DNA from: Pseudomonadota bacterium
GTDB taxonomy: Bacteria > Pseudomonadota > Gammaproteobacteria > Burkholderiales > Rhodocyclaceae
Assembly (NCBI GenBank): GCA_018262195.1
Contig: JAGTRS010000020.1
Coordinates: forward strand, 1-64,000
DNA length: 64,000 nt
Direction of reading: 5' to 3'
The notes under the pieces are model-generated. The model was given only the letters and a program-made list of their open reading frames with translations, was not told the DNA's origin and ran no database searches. A program made the position numbers and the translations under genes. Shown here piece by piece: positions 55,377 through 61,780 of the stretch. How positions within the stretch are numbered: the stretch's first letter is position 1; each line of letters begins with the position of its first letter.

Positions 55377-55418
55377 GCTTGCTACGGTCTACCGTAAAAA
55401 ACAGCCAAAAATGAAATG
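55377..55418. repeat. Dispersed short repeat, copy 1
   Basis: GCTTGCTACGGTCTACCGTA... reads on the plus strand and matches copy 2 (56167-56208) at most positions over 42 bases, and copy 3 (60759-60793, inverted) over about 35. This copy contains ACGGT-CT-ACCGT and a T-rich stretch on the minus strand, next to the spy1 terminator. Confidence 0.8.
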
Positions 55419-55436
55419 GGGGCCTTCCGCCCCCAT
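55416..55436 (-). terminator. Terminator after spy1
   Basis: ATGGGGGC-GGAAG-GCCCCCAT on the minus strand forms an 8-bp stem followed by TTCATTTTTGG, 17 bases after the stop codon of the Spy-family gene. Part of the T-rich tail comes from repeat copy 1. Confidence 0.8.
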
Positions 55437-55452
55437 GCTTCAAAAACCCTGA

Positions 55453-56001
55453 TCAACGACCGGTCGGCTTGGCAGCATCAACCGCCGCCCCGCCGCGCGG
55501 ACCATCGCCACGAACGCGCGGTCCTCGCTCGGTCGGCTTCATTTCCGACAGTTGCTTGCGCTGCTCCGGCGTCAGCACCTCAAACACCTGACGATCCGCC
55601 TTGGCCCGCGCCAGCGTCATTTCCGACATCGCCTTGGCCGCCTCGTCAGCCAGACCGCGCGCCTTGGCTTCGCTGTAATCTGCCGCCGAAGTCAGCGCCC
55701 GCAGATCGGTTTCGGCCTTGCGCAACGCCTTGGCCTTGTCGCGCATCACCGGCGCTTGGGCATGCATGATCTCGAACACTTTATCCTGCTGCGCCTCGGT
55801 CAGGTTCAAGGCGCGCAGATGCGGCGGCATCATGTTGCCACCCATCATGTGGTGGCCGGCGCCGCCATGCGCCTCCATGCCGCAGCCGGCATGACCACTG
55901 TGACCGCCAAAAGCCGCCGCGGAAAGCGGAATGGCCAAAGCCACGCTGGCGGCGATCAGGAAACGTTTGATATTGGTATTGGTATTGGGGGTAGTTTTCA
56001 T
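55453..56001 (-). CDS. Spy/CpxP-family periplasmic protein 1, His/Met-rich
   Basis: A 182-residue protein with a signal peptide (RFLIAASVALAIPLSAAAF). The mature N-terminus is His/Met/Gly-rich (GGHSGHAGCGMEAHGG, GHHMMGGNMMPPH), a likely metal-binding segment. Two LTxxQ-type motifs follow (LNLTEAQQDKVFEIMHAQAP and VLTPEQRKQL), as in Spy and CpxP chaperones and the periplasmic heavy-metal sensors. It is clearly paralogous to the protein at 61136-61627 but has the additional metal-binding head. It has its own promoter region with three GTAAA half-sites. An AATACC-type hexanucleotide repeat encodes NTNTN before the signal peptide. Confidence 0.88.
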   Translation of the reverse strand: MKTTPNTNTNIKRFLIAASVALAIPLSAAAFGGHSGHAGCGMEAHGGAGHHMMGGNMMPPHLRALNLTEAQQDKVFEIMHAQAPVMRDKAKALRKAETDLRALTSAADYSEAKARGLADEAAKAMSEMTLARAKADRQVFEVLTPEQRKQLSEMKPTERGPRVRGDGPRGGAAVDAAKPTGR

Positions 56002-56046
56002 CTCTTCATCCTCTTGTTCAAATTAGCCGGCCCAAGCGGGCCAAGC

Positions 56047-56112
56047 GACAGGACGAATACTCCCCCGAGAGCCTGTAAAGGTGGGTGACAGGGCTGTAAA
56101 TGAAAGTAAATG
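56047..56112 (-). promoter_or_regulatory. Promoter/operator of spy1 with CpxR-like box
   Basis: On the plus strand GTAAA occurs at 56075-56079, 56096-56100 and 56106-56110; the last two form GTAAA-N5-GTAAA, the published CpxR consensus, and the first is 21 bases (two helical turns) away. On the minus strand, CCTTTA and TATTCG 16 bases apart could be -35/-10 elements. The 66-base block matches 61670-61735 at about 52 positions without gaps, by hand alignment. Confidence 0.7.
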
Positions 56113-56166
56113 GCGTAACTGGACGCAAAACCTTTGGTGCCGGCGATGAAAAGCAGGAACAACCGG

Positions 56167-56208
56167 GCTTGCTACGGTCAACCGGAAAAACCGGCCAAAA
56201 ATGAAACC
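56167..56208. repeat. Dispersed short repeat, copy 2
   Basis: GCTTGCTACGGTCAACCGGA... on the plus strand, ending three bases from the macB permease stop codon. It contains CCGG-AAAAA-CCGG. Confidence 0.8.
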
Positions 56209-56210
56209 GC

Positions 56211-57419
56211 CTACTCGTGCCGCAGCGCCTCAATCGGGTCGAGTTGCGCCGCCCGGCGCGCCGGCACATAGCCGAAAATCACGCCGATCGCTGCCGAGAA
56301 GCCAAAGGCCGTCAGGTTGATGGCCGGGTTGAACATAAAAGGAATGTGCATCAGCGACGACAGCCCGAGGCAGGCGACAAAAGCCAGCGCCACGCCGACC
56401 AGCCCGCCGCAGGCGGAGAGGACGACGGCTTCGATCAGGAATTGCCAGAGCACCTCGTTTTCCAGCGCGCCGATGGCCAGCCGGATGCCGATTTCCCGCG
56501 TTCGCTCGGTGACCGACACCAGCATGATGTTCATGATGCCTATGCCGCCGACGAGCAGGCTGACGGCGGCCACCGCGCCGAGCAGCGCGGTCATCGTGCC
56601 GATGGTGCCGGAGAGCGTTTCGGCGATCTGTTTGGTGTCCATCACGTTGAAATTGTCGTCGGCGTTCTCGGCCAGCTTGCGCCGTTCGCGCAGCAGGCTA
56701 CGCAGTTGGGCGATGGCGACGGTCGCGTCGGTGCCGTCCTTGAGCGAGACCATGACACTGCTGATGTCGAGCGTGCCGGTGAGCCTGCGTTGCGCGGTGC
56801 GCAGCGGCATCAGCACCGCGTCGTCCTGGTCCTGGCCCATGCCGCCCTGGCCCTTGGCGACGAGCAGGCCGATCACCTCGCAGTCGAAGGTCTTGACGCG
56901 GATGCTGCTGCCGACCGGATTGCCGGCGCCGAACAGCTCCTTCCTGACGGTATTGCCGATCACGCAGACGGCCTTGCCGGCGCGTTCCTCGTCATCGGTG
57001 AACTGCCGCCCGGCGGCGATTTTCCTGTTGCCGGCGATGAAATAGTCGTTGCTCGTGCCGCTCACCGTCGACGACCAGTTCTGCGTGCCGGCGACCAGCG
57101 TTACGGGGCTGCCGACGACGGGCGCCACGGCCTTGAGGCCATTGACCTGTTGCTGGATGGCCTCGATGTCGGCGATCTTGAATTTCGGCGCGCCGGCACT
57201 GTCGCGCCCCGGACCAAGGCGCTGGCCGGGCATGACCATGAGCAGGTTGCTGCCGAGGCTGGCAATCTGGTCGGAAACCATCTTCGTGGCGCCGTTGCCC
57301 AGCGTCACCATGGTGATCACCGCGCCGACGCCGATGACGATGCCGAGCACGGTCAGGAAAGAGCGCAGCAGGTTGCGGCGAATCTCGCGCAGGGCGAGCA
57401 GGAGTGCGTTGAGGATCAT
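56211..57419 (-). CDS. macB: MacB-type ABC transporter permease
   Basis: The ATG at 57419 (MILNALLLALREIRRNL) overlaps the ATPase stop as ATGA and gives 402 residues; the track frame to 57854 runs through the ATPase gene. It has the MacB/FtsX fold: TM1 (FLTVLGIVIGVGAVITMVTLG), a large periplasmic domain (GNRKIAAGRQFTDDEERAG), and three C-terminal helices (LLGAVAAVSLLVGGIGIMNIMLVSV, VVLSACGGLVGVALAFVACLG, AIGVIFGYVPARRAAQLDPIEALRHE). Unlike E. coli MacB, the ATPase is a separate protein. Confidence 0.93.
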   Translation of the reverse strand: MILNALLLALREIRRNLLRSFLTVLGIVIGVGAVITMVTLGNGATKMVSDQIASLGSNLLMVMPGQRLGPGRDSAGAPKFKIADIEAIQQQVNGLKAVAPVVGSPVTLVAGTQNWSSTVSGTSNDYFIAGNRKIAAGRQFTDDEERAGKAVCVIGNTVRKELFGAGNPVGSSIRVKTFDCEVIGLLVAKGQGGMGQDQDDAVLMPLRTAQRRLTGTLDISSVMVSLKDGTDATVAIAQLRSLLRERRKLAENADDNFNVMDTKQIAETLSGTIGTMTALLGAVAAVSLLVGGIGIMNIMLVSVTERTREIGIRLAIGALENEVLWQFLIEAVVLSACGGLVGVALAFVACLGLSSLMHIPFMFNPAINLTAFGFSAAIGVIFGYVPARRAAQLDPIEALRHE

Positions 57420-58114
57420 GCGACCTCCGTCGCGCTGTCGCTGTCCACTAGGCCGTCTACAAAATGCACGATGCGCCGTGCGTACTGGGCCATGTCCGGC
57501 TCGTGGGTGACCATGATGATGGTGATGCCTTGTTCGCTGTTCAGCCGCCCGAGCAGCTCCATGATCTCGTGGCTGCGCTTGCTGTCGAGGTTGCCGGTTG
57601 GCTCGTCGGCAAGCAGAACGAGCGGGTTGGTGACGATGGCCCGGGCGATGGCGACGCGCTGCTGCTGGCCGCCGGAAAGCTCGGCCGGAGTGTGCGTTTC
57701 CCAGCCGTCGAGGCCGACCTTGGCGAGTGCGGCGCGGGCCGCCGTATGGCGCGCTTCGGCCGGCTCGCCGCGATAGAGCAGCGGCAGTTCGACGTTCTCC
57801 TGCGCCGAGGTTCGCGCCAGTAAATTGAAGCCCTGGAAAACAAAGCCGAGACATTGCCGACGCAGCAGCGCCCGCTGGTTGCGGTCGAGTTGCTCGACAT
57901 TGATGCCCTGAAAACGGTACTCGCCCGAGGTCGGCGTATCGAGGCAGCCGAGCAGGTTCATCGCCGTCGATTTGCCGGAACCGCTCGGCCCCATGACCGC
58001 CACGAATTCACCCGCCTCGATCTTCAGATCAACGCCGGCCAGCGCCTGAAACGCTGCCTGTCCCTGACCGTAGGTCTTGGTGATACCGCGCAGTTCGATC
58101 AAGGGCGCGCTCAC
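57416..58114 (-). CDS. MacB-type ABC transporter ATPase
   Basis: The start is a GTG at 58114 behind a GAGG ribosome-binding site (MSAPLIELRGITKTYGQG), giving 232 residues; the upstream residues in the track look non-coding. It has a Walker A (GPSGSGKSTAMNLLG), Q-loop (FVFQGFNLL), signature (ELSGGQQQRVAIARA), Walker B (LLADEPTGNLDS) and H-loop (MVTHEPDMA). This is the LolD/MacB class that powers mechanotransmission exporters. It is coupled by ATGA overlap to the permease. Confidence 0.95.
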   Translation of the reverse strand: MSAPLIELRGITKTYGQGQAAFQALAGVDLKIEAGEFVAVMGPSGSGKSTAMNLLGCLDTPTSGEYRFQGINVEQLDRNQRALLRRQCLGFVFQGFNLLARTSAQENVELPLLYRGEPAEARHTAARAALAKVGLDGWETHTPAELSGGQQQRVAIARAIVTNPLVLLADEPTGNLDSKRSHEIMELLGRLNSEQGITIIMVTHEPDMAQYARRIVHFVDGLVDSDSATEVA

Positions 58115-58196
58115 AGCAACCTCGTCGCCATTTCGATGTCGGCCGCTTTTTCTCCCCCAAGGGGACTTCCTTCGGGGCACGGTTGATCGTAACAAC

Positions 58197-59498
58197 TCAC
58201 TTTTTCGCCGCCTGATAGTCGGAAATCACCGCCGCACCCACCGGCAAATCGCCGCCCAGCACTTCGGTCTGGCGCCCGTTGCTGACGCCGGTTTTCAACG
58301 CCACTGCCTGCGGCTGGCCATCGACCAGCACCCAGACCTGCCCGTCGCCGCTGCCCTTGGCTGCCACCGGGCGATTCTTCGGCGCCTCCGGTGGCGGGCC
58401 GGGCATCAGGCGGGCGACCAAGCCGCGCTCTTTCTCCGCCGCCCCCTCGCCCGGCGGCGTGAAACGCAGCGCTGCATTGGGCACCAGCAGGGCCTTGTCA
58501 CGGCTCGCCGTGACGATAGTAGCCGTCGCCGTCATCCCCGGCCGCAGCGCCAGATCGTCGTTATTGACCTGCAAAATGGTCTTGTAGGTGACCACGTTAT
58601 CGGTCGTCGTCGAACCCAATCCAACACGCTGAATGCTCGCCGGAAACTGGCGCCCCGGCCAGGCCGACACCGTGAAGCTCGCCGTCTGGCCGGTTTTGAC
58701 ATTGCCGACATCGGCCTCATCGACCTTGACCTGCAACTCCATCTTGGCCAGATCCTCGGCCAGCACGAAAAGCACTGGCGTTGTCATCGCCGCCACCACG
58801 GTCTGGCCCGGCTCCACCTTGCGGGTCAGCACGACGCCATCGACCGGCGAACGGATGGTCGCCTTGCCGAGATTGGTTTCATCCGTTTTCAGCGACGCCC
58901 GCGCCTGCACCACGTCGGCCCGGGCGCTGGCCAGGCTGGCGATGGCCCGTTGCCGCGCCGCATCGGCCGTCTCCAGCTCGGTCTTCGCCGGCACCTTGCC
59001 GCCGGAAAGCTCTGCCACCTGCCGCATACGATTCAGCGAGGCCGTCGTTTCGGCCAGTGTCGCCTGCGCCAGCGCCACCGAAGCCTCGGCCGCCGCCACG
59101 GCGGCCTGCGATTTGGAAACGGCGTCCTTTAATTTGGCGGTATCGAGCTGGGCCAGCAACTGGCCTTTCTTGACCACGTCGTTTTCCTGCACCAGCACGC
59201 TGGACAGCGTCCCGGAAAGCTCGGAACCGACATCGACCGACTTGGTCGGCTGCAGCGTACCGCTGGCCGAAGCGGTGACCACCAGATTGCCGACCACCGC
59301 CTCCTCGGTCACGAACTGCCCGGCCGGCTGGCCGTTGCCGCCGGAAAAGGCCAGCCACAGCACAGCCACGACGGAAATGCCGCCGCCGATCAGCCACCAC
59401 CGTCGCCGGCTGCTACCCTCGTGCTTGTTCTGGCTGAGCAGCGCAATGAGCGCCTCCGATGATGTATCCGTACTTTGGGTATCCGTACTTTTTGTCAT
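58197..59498 (-). CDS. macA: MacA-type periplasmic adaptor (membrane fusion protein)
   Basis: A 433-residue HlyD/RND-type adaptor with one N-terminal membrane anchor (WWLIGGGISVVAVLWLAFSGG). A split lipoyl domain (VDVGSELSGTLSSVLVQENDVVKKGQLLAQLD and ATIRSPVDGVVLTRKVEPGQTV) brackets an alpha-hairpin rich in Ala/Gln/Glu, followed by the beta-barrel and membrane-proximal domains. It bridges the MacB permease and the outer-membrane channel. Its start overlaps the outer-membrane gene stop by four bases. Confidence 0.94.
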   Translation of the reverse strand: MTKSTDTQSTDTSSEALIALLSQNKHEGSSRRRWWLIGGGISVVAVLWLAFSGGNGQPAGQFVTEEAVVGNLVVTASASGTLQPTKSVDVGSELSGTLSSVLVQENDVVKKGQLLAQLDTAKLKDAVSKSQAAVAAAEASVALAQATLAETTASLNRMRQVAELSGGKVPAKTELETADAARQRAIASLASARADVVQARASLKTDETNLGKATIRSPVDGVVLTRKVEPGQTVVAAMTTPVLFVLAEDLAKMELQVKVDEADVGNVKTGQTASFTVSAWPGRQFPASIQRVGLGSTTTDNVVTYKTILQVNNDDLALRPGMTATATIVTASRDKALLVPNAALRFTPPGEGAAEKERGLVARLMPGPPPEAPKNRPVAAKGSGDGQVWVLVDGQPQAVALKTGVSNGRQTEVLGGDLPVGAAVISDYQAAKK

Positions 59499-60997
59499 GT
59501 TCGATCACTTTCATAGGCCGACCAACCGCCGCCGAGCGCCTTGTAGAGCTGGATCAGCGTGGTCAGCACGGCCGACTGGGCGGTGGCCAGCGAATCCTCG
59601 GCCGTCAATTGGGTGCGCTGGGTTTCCAGCACTTTCTGGAAGTCGGCGAGGCCGGCTTCGTACATCTGTCGGCTCAGCGTCGCCGCGTTGCGCGCCGAAA
59701 CGGCCGCCGCTTCCCGGGCGACCACCCGGTCGCGGGCCTGGGCGTGGGCGGTCAGCGCGTTTTCGACCTCTTCCAGCGCCGTCAGCACGGCGCTTTCGTA
59801 GTCAGCCAGCGCCGCTTCCTGCACCGCCGTCTGCAAATCCACGGCGCTGCGCAGCTTGCCGCCGTCAAACAAGGTCGCCGCCAGCGTACCGCTCAGGGCA
59901 CGAACGAGACTGTCGCTGCCGCCCAGCGCGCCGAGGCTGTAAGCCTGCCAGCCGAACGAGCCGCCGAGCGACAGGCTGGGAAAACGTGCCGCCTGCCGCT
60001 GCCCGATGCGCGCCGTTTCCGCCGCCAGCGTGCGCTCGGCGACGATCAGATCAGGTCGCTGGGTGAGCACATCGGCCGGGATGCCGGTCGCTACAGTCGG
60101 CGGCGCCACCGGCCGGGCCTGCGAGGCCAGCAACTGTTCATGCAGGGCGCCGGGTTGCCGGCCAAGCAAGGTAGCCAGCCGGTTTTCCGCCGCCGCCAGC
60201 CCGACCTCAAGGTCCGGCATACTCGCCCGCGTTTGCTCACGGTTGGTCCGCGCCTGCTCGACATCGGCGCTACTGGCCAGCCCGGCCTGCTCGCGCCATT
60301 CAGTGATCTGCGCCGTTTCGCTCTGGCTGGCCAGATTGGCCCGGGCAATCGCCAGCCGCGACTGGTAGGCGCGGAACTCGACATAGTTCTGCGCCACCTC
60401 GGCAACCAGCGAAACCCGGACGTTTTCCAGACTGGCCTCGCTCGCCGCCAGATCAGCACTCGCCGCCTCGACCGCCCGGCGCGTACCGCCGAAAAGATCG
60501 AGCTCCCAACTGGCGTCGAAACCGGCGTCGTACAGCGTGCGCGTCGGCAGGGCGTTGACTGCCGTGGCGTTCTTCGTCCGGCTAACGCCAGTCGACGCCG
60601 ATACTTGCGGAAAATAACCGCTCACCGCCTGCGCCCGACTGGCCCGCGCCTGCCGCAAGCGAGCCTGCGCCGCCTTGAGGTCGAGGCTACCGGATTGGGC
60701 GGTGGCGATCAGCTCATCCAGCGCCGGATCGCCCAGCTGCCGCCACCAGTCACTTTGCGATTTTGGGCTGTTTTTCCGGTTGACCGTGGAAGCAGTGGAA
60801 ATGGTGGAATCGGTCGCCGGCGGCGGCGAATCACCCGCTTTGGTCGCCAGCCAACGGCTCGGCATGGCCCACCCGGGAACCTGATAATCCGGCCCGACCG
60901 AAGGCAGGCCTGAACAGGCGCTCAGCGAGCCGACGGCGAGCAAAACAACAAGCGACAAGCGCCAATTCGGCGCTCTTGAAAATGACGTGGTATTCAT
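59495..60997 (-). CDS. Outer-membrane efflux lipoprotein (TolC/NodT family)
   Basis: The ATG at 60997 (MNTTSFSRAPNWRLSLVVLL) gives 500 residues with a lipobox (VGSLSACSG, cysteine about residue 28). Two outer-membrane efflux-protein repeats are visible (WWRQLGDPALDELIATAQSGSLDLKAAQARL, and QRPDLIVAERTLAAETARIGQRQAARFPSLSL). The linker before the first repeat (STVNRKNSPKSQSD) is encoded by copy 3 of the dispersed repeat. It forms the channel of the tripartite system with MacA and MacB downstream. A terminator and a GTTAA-N5-GTAAA box lie between it and spy2. Confidence 0.92.
   Translation of the reverse strand: MNTTSFSRAPNWRLSLVVLLAVGSLSACSGLPSVGPDYQVPGWAMPSRWLATKAGDSPPPATDSTISTASTVNRKNSPKSQSDWWRQLGDPALDELIATAQSGSLDLKAAQARLRQARASRAQAVSGYFPQVSASTGVSRTKNATAVNALPTRTLYDAGFDASWELDLFGGTRRAVEAASADLAASEASLENVRVSLVAEVAQNYVEFRAYQSRLAIARANLASQSETAQITEWREQAGLASSADVEQARTNREQTRASMPDLEVGLAAAENRLATLLGRQPGALHEQLLASQARPVAPPTVATGIPADVLTQRPDLIVAERTLAAETARIGQRQAARFPSLSLGGSFGWQAYSLGALGGSDSLVRALSGTLAATLFDGGKLRSAVDLQTAVQEAALADYESAVLTALEEVENALTAHAQARDRVVAREAAAVSARNAATLSRQMYEAGLADFQKVLETQRTQLTAEDSLATAQSAVLTTLIQLYKALGGGWSAYESDRT
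60759..60793. repeat. Dispersed short repeat, copy 3 (inverted, inside a gene)
   Basis: The reverse complement GCTTCCACGGTCAACCGGAA... matches copies 1 and 2. It lies in frame inside the outer-membrane lipoprotein gene, in the variable linker just before the first conserved efflux repeat. Confidence 0.75.
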
Positions 60998-61031
60998 CCG
61001 GATATTTTCACCGCCTGCGATCTTCACAGGT

Positions 61032-61046
61032 GTTAAACGGTGTAAA
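61032..61046. promoter_or_regulatory. CpxR-like box before the outer-membrane efflux gene
   Basis: GTTAA-ACGGT-GTAAA on the plus strand has the same 10-base periodicity and orientation as the boxes upstream of both Spy-family genes. It lies 35 bases upstream of the ATG at 60997 and overlaps the T-tract of the spy2 terminator. Confidence 0.5.
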
Positions 61047-61083
61047 AAGGCCCGCCGCGACCACAAATTCTGCCGGGGCGGGC
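61044..61083 (-). terminator. Terminator between spy2 and the efflux operon
   Basis: On the minus strand GCCCGCC...GGCGGGC (20-base loop) is followed by CTTTTT, 53 bases after the spy2 stop codon. The long loop makes it moderate rather than strong, so read-through into the efflux genes is possible. Confidence 0.6.
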
Positions 61084-61135
61084 AAGGGGGGTAGATCGCG
61101 CGGCGGGCGCCGTTCTGGCAGCCGCCGGACATTGG

Positions 61136-61627
61136 TTAATCGCCGGGAGGCGGACGGCGGTCAGCACCTCGCCCGTCCATTGGTGCCTTGCCGGCGGCCT
61201 TCAACTTGGCCAGTTGGCTGCGCTGCTCGACAGTCAGCACGTCGTAAATCTGGCGTTCGGCCTTGGCCCGGGCCAGCGACAAATCAGCCGTCGCCCTCGC
61301 CGCGTCATCAGACAACTCTCGCGCCTTCGGCTCGGTATATTCAGCCGACAACACCAGCTTGCGCAGCGACTCCTCCGCACTACGCGCCGCCTTCACCTTC
61401 TCGCGCATGGCCGGCGCCTGCCCGTGCATGATCTCGAAACCCCGGTCGCGCTGCGCCTCGCTCAAATCCAGCTGGCGCAAATACGACGGCATCTTTCCCG
61501 ATTCCGTAGCCGGCCAGACACCGCAACGATCACCACGCTGACCAACCCCCAGGGCAGCCAACGGCAGCACCAGCGAAATCGCCGCGGCAATCAGAAACCG
61601 CTGCAAACTCAATTTTGGAAAATTCAC
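61136..61627 (-). CDS. Spy/CpxP-family periplasmic protein 2
   Basis: The likely start is a GTG at 61627 (MNFPKLSLQRFLIAAAISL) with AAGGG upstream, giving 163 residues; the track start at 61696 reads through the poly-C tract. A signal peptide (FLIAAAISLVLPLAALG) is followed by LTxxQ-like motifs (LDLSEAQRDRGFEIMHGQAP and VLTVEQRSQL). It is paralogous to the 55453-56001 protein (shared EIMH-x-QAP and LARAKA-x-RQ blocks) but lacks the His/Met-rich head. It precedes the efflux genes on the same strand. Confidence 0.83.
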   Translation of the reverse strand: MNFPKLSLQRFLIAAAISLVLPLAALGVGQRGDRCGVWPATESGKMPSYLRQLDLSEAQRDRGFEIMHGQAPAMREKVKAARSAEESLRKLVLSAEYTEPKARELSDDAARATADLSLARAKAERQIYDVLTVEQRSQLAKLKAAGKAPMDGRGADRRPPPGD

Positions 61628-61652
61628 ATTCAGCCCTTTGACTTCAAGTTTC

Positions 61653-61663
61653 GGGGGGGGGGG
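61653..61663. repeat. G11 homopolymer in the spy2 leader
   Basis: Eleven consecutive G residues on the plus strand lie between the predicted promoter (-10 near 61677-61682) and the GTG start at 61627. The equivalent spy1 leader has no such tract. Confidence 0.9.
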
Positions 61664-61669
61664 CCCGAC

Positions 61670-61735
61670 GACAGGACGAATAGTCACCCGCGGCACAGTT
61701 AAGGCGGGTTAGGGAGCTGTAAATGAACGTAAATG
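61670..61735 (-). promoter_or_regulatory. Promoter/operator of spy2 with CpxR-like box
   Basis: GTAAA at 61719-61723 and 61729-61733 (N5 spacing), with a degenerate GTTAA at 61698-61702, 21 bases away. All three positions match the spy1 region exactly in spacing. CCTTAA and TATTCG 16 bases apart on the minus strand are candidate -35/-10 elements. Confidence 0.7.
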
Positions 61736-61780
61736 GGAGAAGGATTTGTAACCCAACATCTCTTGGGCCCTGTCCATGCA

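Follow-up and report, generated by a model that had tools for sequence, protein, structure and literature searches.

A MacAB-type exporter and the two Spy-like periplasmic proteins encoded on either side of it in a Dechloromonas-like bacterium are best read as effectors of a Cpx-type envelope-stress response, in which CpxR would drive spyU, the exporter, spyM and its own gene (probability about 0.8). The promoter block shared by the two spy genes carries a CpxR site, so the set most likely forms one response to envelope damage, and the predicted co-induction of the Spys and the exporter under envelope stress is well supported comparatively. A first-pass annotation of this DNA had proposed joint induction by envelope or metal stress; CpxR boxes here and in relatives favour the envelope-stress half of that proposal, while metal induction found no support.

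Results

The locus is encoded by the minus strand of contig C85 (64,990 bases) in a genome of 4.23 Mb whose best named matches are Dechloromonas species, and it falls within the window, meaning the whole stretch of 64,000 nucleotides that was analysed. The order of transcription is spyU (61136..61627), a NodT-type outer-membrane efflux lipoprotein gene (omp, 59495..60997), macA for the periplasmic adaptor (58197..59498), macB(ATPase) (57416..58114), macB(permease) (56211..57419) and spyM (55453..56001), all on the minus strand. Profile matches thus bear out the gene content and order first described, an exporter bracketed by two LTXXQ genes. The GTG start of spyU was inferred by alignment with the orthologue in G112. 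Between spyU and omp lies a terminator-like GC-rich stem-loop with a T run after it (61049..61109, minus strand; −35.8 kcal/mol, z −2.5), a region that is retained in L153, and a second terminator-like hairpin (55416..55436, minus strand) lies 3′ of spyM. A Schlafen-group-3-type helicase gene (PF09848; 61781-63751) sits directly upstream of spyU, as it also does in G112.

All parts of a MacAB-type tripartite exporter are present, namely a MacA adaptor (MacA/RND-type), a MacB ATPase with Walker A GPSGSGKS and signature LSGGQ, a permease with MacB_PCD and FtsX domains, and an outer-membrane channel. The channel component is NodT rather than TolC (NodT efflux family match of 361 bits against a cut-off of 210) and has a lipobox. 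MacB is split over two genes, with the ATPase aligning to residues 2-227 and the permease to residues 256-648 of the 648-residue protein; the halves score 268 and 244 bits against the fused-MacB equivalog PRK10535 (NCBIfam), whose cut-off of 966 bits is not reached.

Both flanking proteins belong to the LTXXQ family (PF07813), with scores of 40.2 bits for SpyM and 29.9 bits for SpyU (curated cut-off 24.3 bits), and both also exceed the curated cut-off of Metal_resist (PF13801; 50.6 and 29.9 bits, respectively). The predicted SpyM fold, from a model of moderate quality (mean pLDDT 75), has CpxP (3itf; TM by target 0.70, E 0.0038) and Spy as its best PDB matches, and it resembles CnrX and ZraP as well. 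By sequence, SpyM matches Spy (3o39, E 1e-6) and is closer to Spy than to CpxP. Its N-terminal head contains six His, five Met and one Cys, while SpyU has no His/Met-rich head. The first-pass annotation had presented one protein with a metal-binding head and one without as a special pair; the comparison with relatives suggests otherwise, as His/Met-rich heads are the usual state among these Spys and common in the clade linked to cpxRA, and SpyU is, on this comparison, the diverged copy of the pair. Most Spys linked to cpxRA or to the exporter, SpyU included, retain a single head Cys (Cys40 in SpyM, codon 55882-55884), and almost no Cys occurs in the core. This conserved residue could possibly form a disulfide or act as a metal ligand.

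Comparison of the blocks upstream of spyU and spyM gave 52 of 66 identical bases, exactly the count previously made by hand, and 78% identity over 76 nt. The best-conserved part is the motif GTAAA-N5-GTAAA, which is exact at both genes: GTAAATGAACGTAAA at 61719..61733 on the plus strand, about 91 nt upstream of spyU (TTTAC-N5-TTTAC in gene sense), and GTAAATGAAAGTAAA at 56096..56110 on the plus strand, 94 nt upstream of spyM. The motif is the published CpxR consensus (PMC5063474). The block is conserved across species of the genus, including D. agitata and D. hortensis, and both boxes are retained in orthologous spy promoters; the proposed duplication of the spy gene together with its promoter is supported. 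A search for sigma-70 core promoters at the spy starts found nothing. Copies of a dispersed, roughly 40-nt repeat (CTTGCTACGGTCAACCGGAAAAAACGGCCAAAAATGAAA-like) also flank spyM (55378-55415 and 56168-56206), a pair that the first-pass annotation had not distinguished. This repeat is unrelated to the promoter block and was rejected as a trace of promoter duplication, since the genome holds 11 close copies, mostly intergenic. Another copy (60761-60790) falls within omp and is read in frame as part of the lipoprotein's linker, as it is in L153, and D. denitrificans and G178 carry copies too.

Allowing at most one mismatch, the window contains three boxes, against 0.47 expected, one upstream of each transcription unit. 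The third, GTTAAACGGTGTAAA (61032..61046, plus strand), has one mismatch, lies 34 nt upstream of omp and is weak evidence when taken alone because it overlaps the T run that follows the GC-rich stem-loop. Only six exact boxes occur in the 4.23 Mb genome, at spyU, spyM, a cpxR-like gene on contig C72 and three other sites. This is no genome-wide excess (a reversed control pattern gave 11), so the significance of the exact boxes lies in their position and not in their count. At related exporter promoters, a box with at most one mismatch was found in a conserved orientation at 20 of 72 loci (shuffles: mean 0.29, maximum 3) and in the opposite orientation at one of 72; 52 of the 72 have no recognisable box, including some with cpxRA directly upstream. 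D. denitrificans has three exact boxes in total, at cpxR, the exporter and spy. In G000, a CpxR box lies about 100 nt upstream of a gene for a Pvc16_N protein of contractile injection systems (L007 835-1404); in G112, such a gene (L226 826-1395) is preceded by tandem boxes.

The box on contig C72 lies 73 nt upstream of a gene for an OmpR-family regulator with receiver and winged-helix domains. Among curated NCBIfam models its best match is CpxR, at a score below the equivalog cut-off (193 vs 341 bits); the partner kinase has HAMP, HisKA and HATPase domains and matches CpxA models best, also below the equivalog cut-off (213 vs 486 bits). Analysis of CpxR orthologues in the family revealed a same-strand exact box upstream of the gene in 30 of 30 tested, nearly all at 60–90 nt, which identifies the CpxR-like protein on C72 as the cognate regulator as far as sequence evidence allows. 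The kinase (L051 3362-4510) has two membrane helices and a Pro/Gly-rich periplasmic loop of about 60 residues, in which a Pfam search found no folded sensor domain. Most Dechloromonas and some other genera have this sensor-less form; in other members of the family the periplasmic part is longer. In G000, G112, G148 and G241, the CpxR box separates cpxR from a divergent gene for an EF-hand protein (L051 5524-6195); in G069 this gene has a CpxR box of its own, and it is probably a further member of the regulon.

Related bacteria have the same parts in other orders. In D. agitata, a box, spy, cpxR, cpxA, a box with one mismatch, omp, macA and macB follow each other in one direction; in G167 and G175, spy and cpxRA-omp-macAB are transcribed divergently; and in a Thiothrix MAG (Gammaproteobacteria), cpxRA is divergent from box-omp-macAB. 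The double-Spy bracket itself was found in no other related locus compared, and the nearest relatives have one Spy. Absence of the arrangement from all relatives had been named in advance as a result that would refute it; the exact bracket is indeed absent from the loci compared, but the wider module recurs.

Phylogenetic analysis placed the cpxRA- and mac-linked Spys in a single clade (100/100 support), apart from unlinked LTXXQ proteins, among them the third LTXXQ protein of the host genome. Within Dechloromonas, SpyU pairs with the exporter-linked Spy of G112 and SpyM with that of HGW-Betaproteobacteria-6 (both 100/100), and the splits between these two pairs have weak support. In HGW-Betaproteobacteria-6 the promoter block is still present upstream of omp and the spyU reading frame is lost; in G112 spyU is present and a RES/Xre toxin-antitoxin pair (L054 2280-3292) occupies the spyM site. 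On these gene histories the bracket is lineage-specific, one state of a fluctuating Spy copy number. The bracket as a system in its own right is not supported, as the closest relatives have only one of the two Spys.

Discussion

In the proposed mechanism, damage to the envelope would be detected by the CpxA/CpxR-like pair from contig C72, and phosphorylated CpxR would bind GTAAA-N5-GTAAA. Three neighbouring units would then be turned on, spyU, omp-macA-macB(ATPase)-macB(permease) and spyM, and the box upstream of cpxR points to putative autoregulation. The Spy proteins would serve as periplasmic chaperones that need no ATP, and the pump, of MacAB type, may clear harmful or misplaced molecules out of the periplasm. 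The second Spy most likely reflects a duplication of spy with its CpxR-dependent promoter within the Dechloromonas lineage.

The role of the Spys leaves most room for a different reading, in which one or both act mainly as CpxP-type feedback inhibitors of the kinase and not as chaperones. Many relatives have spy divergent from cpxRA, the position of E. coli cpxP, and E. coli CpxP binds the sensor domain of CpxA (PMC4160245). In the kinase here and in most Dechloromonas, a short Pro/Gly-rich loop stands in place of a folded periplasmic domain, so that the contact site known for CpxP is missing, and SpyM is closer in sequence to Spy than to CpxP; we regard feedback inhibition as unlikely. The same kinase undercuts the sensor role that the first-pass annotation had suggested for the Spys, since CpxP acts on a sensor domain that this protein does not have and CpxP-like sensing cannot be assumed. 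It is likewise improbable that the system is a reduced Cpx in which a sensor-less kinase has passed detection to the Spys, with SpyU as regulator, SpyM as a chaperone that responds to metal or oxidants, and MacAB as the core output.

Stronger doubt attaches to a metal-resistance locus, in which SpyM would be a metal sensor or buffer like CnrX or ZraP and the pump would export metal or metal-damaged cargo. The Metal_resist matches of both proteins, the composition of the SpyM head and the likeness of its model to CnrX and ZraP would all fit, but CpxP and Spy rank first by both sequence and fold, neither a sigma/anti-sigma pair nor a metal transporter lies near the locus, and the exporter is of MacB type and not a metal RND or P-type pump. 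Much of the cpxRA-linked clade also has His/Met-rich heads, and SpyU has none. Control by another OmpR-family regulator, BaeR-like or similar, instead of the CpxR orthologue appears improbable. Half-site types of this kind are common to OmpR-family regulators, E. coli spy responds to BaeR as well as CpxR (PMC12503329), and BaeSR raises macAB-tolC expression in Acinetobacter baumannii (PMC4498774); even so, the box has the published CpxR sequence and precedes the CpxR orthologue's own gene in every genome tested, and several genera have cpxRA in physical linkage with spy and the exporter. That the promoters are alike through recent duplication only, with Spys and exporter regulated independently as mere neighbours, is very improbable: the double bracket is confined to this locus among those compared, as such a view would expect, but different species share the promoter block, and the box is also found at exporter promoters that have no adjoining Spy.

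Dechloromonas includes perchlorate reducers. E. coli Spy responds to chlorite (PMC12503329). A link to chlorite stress was dropped, as no chlorite dismutase was found in the host genome.

Control by CpxR would tie a MacAB-type exporter to Cpx as part of a near-minimal regulon (cpxRA, spy and exporter) in environmental betaproteobacteria. D. denitrificans, with its three exact boxes only, offers a clean test case for the native role of the pump in envelope stress, and the sensor-less CpxA-like kinase makes it possible to study how Cpx sensing works when the periplasmic domain is missing. In the open-licence literature we found no description of a linkage between Cpx and MacAB in these bacteria, and no study of Cpx in environmental betaproteobacteria.

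Known systems share individual features with this locus. As in E. coli cpxP/cpxRA and spy, a GTAAA-N5-GTAAA box accompanies an LTXXQ protein and cpxRA has its own box, and relatives have a divergent cpxP-like gene; the E. coli cpxRA locus has no MacAB pump, however, and its CpxA has a folded sensor domain. CnrX, ZraP and NccX have the same helical-hairpin fold and Metal_resist match, but here there is no sigma factor or metal pump partner and the sequence is closer to Spy and CpxP. In A. baumannii a MacAB-type pump, MacAB-TolC, is also raised by an envelope-stress two-component system, although there the regulator is BaeR and its direct binding to the macA promoter was not seen (PMC4498774); the available text describes no linkage to Spy. 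Pseudomonas CpxR controls cpxP, muxABC-opmB and mexAB-oprM, with a box that is conserved across species for cpxP and muxA (PMC5063474); as here, tripartite pump operons have boxes, and so does an LTXXQ gene that neighbours cpxR. The Pseudomonas pumps are of RND type, whereas the pump here is a MacAB ABC exporter flanked by spy genes. CpxR-driven pumps together with CpxP are thus already known in Pseudomonas, and the MacAB version is a variant of that arrangement.
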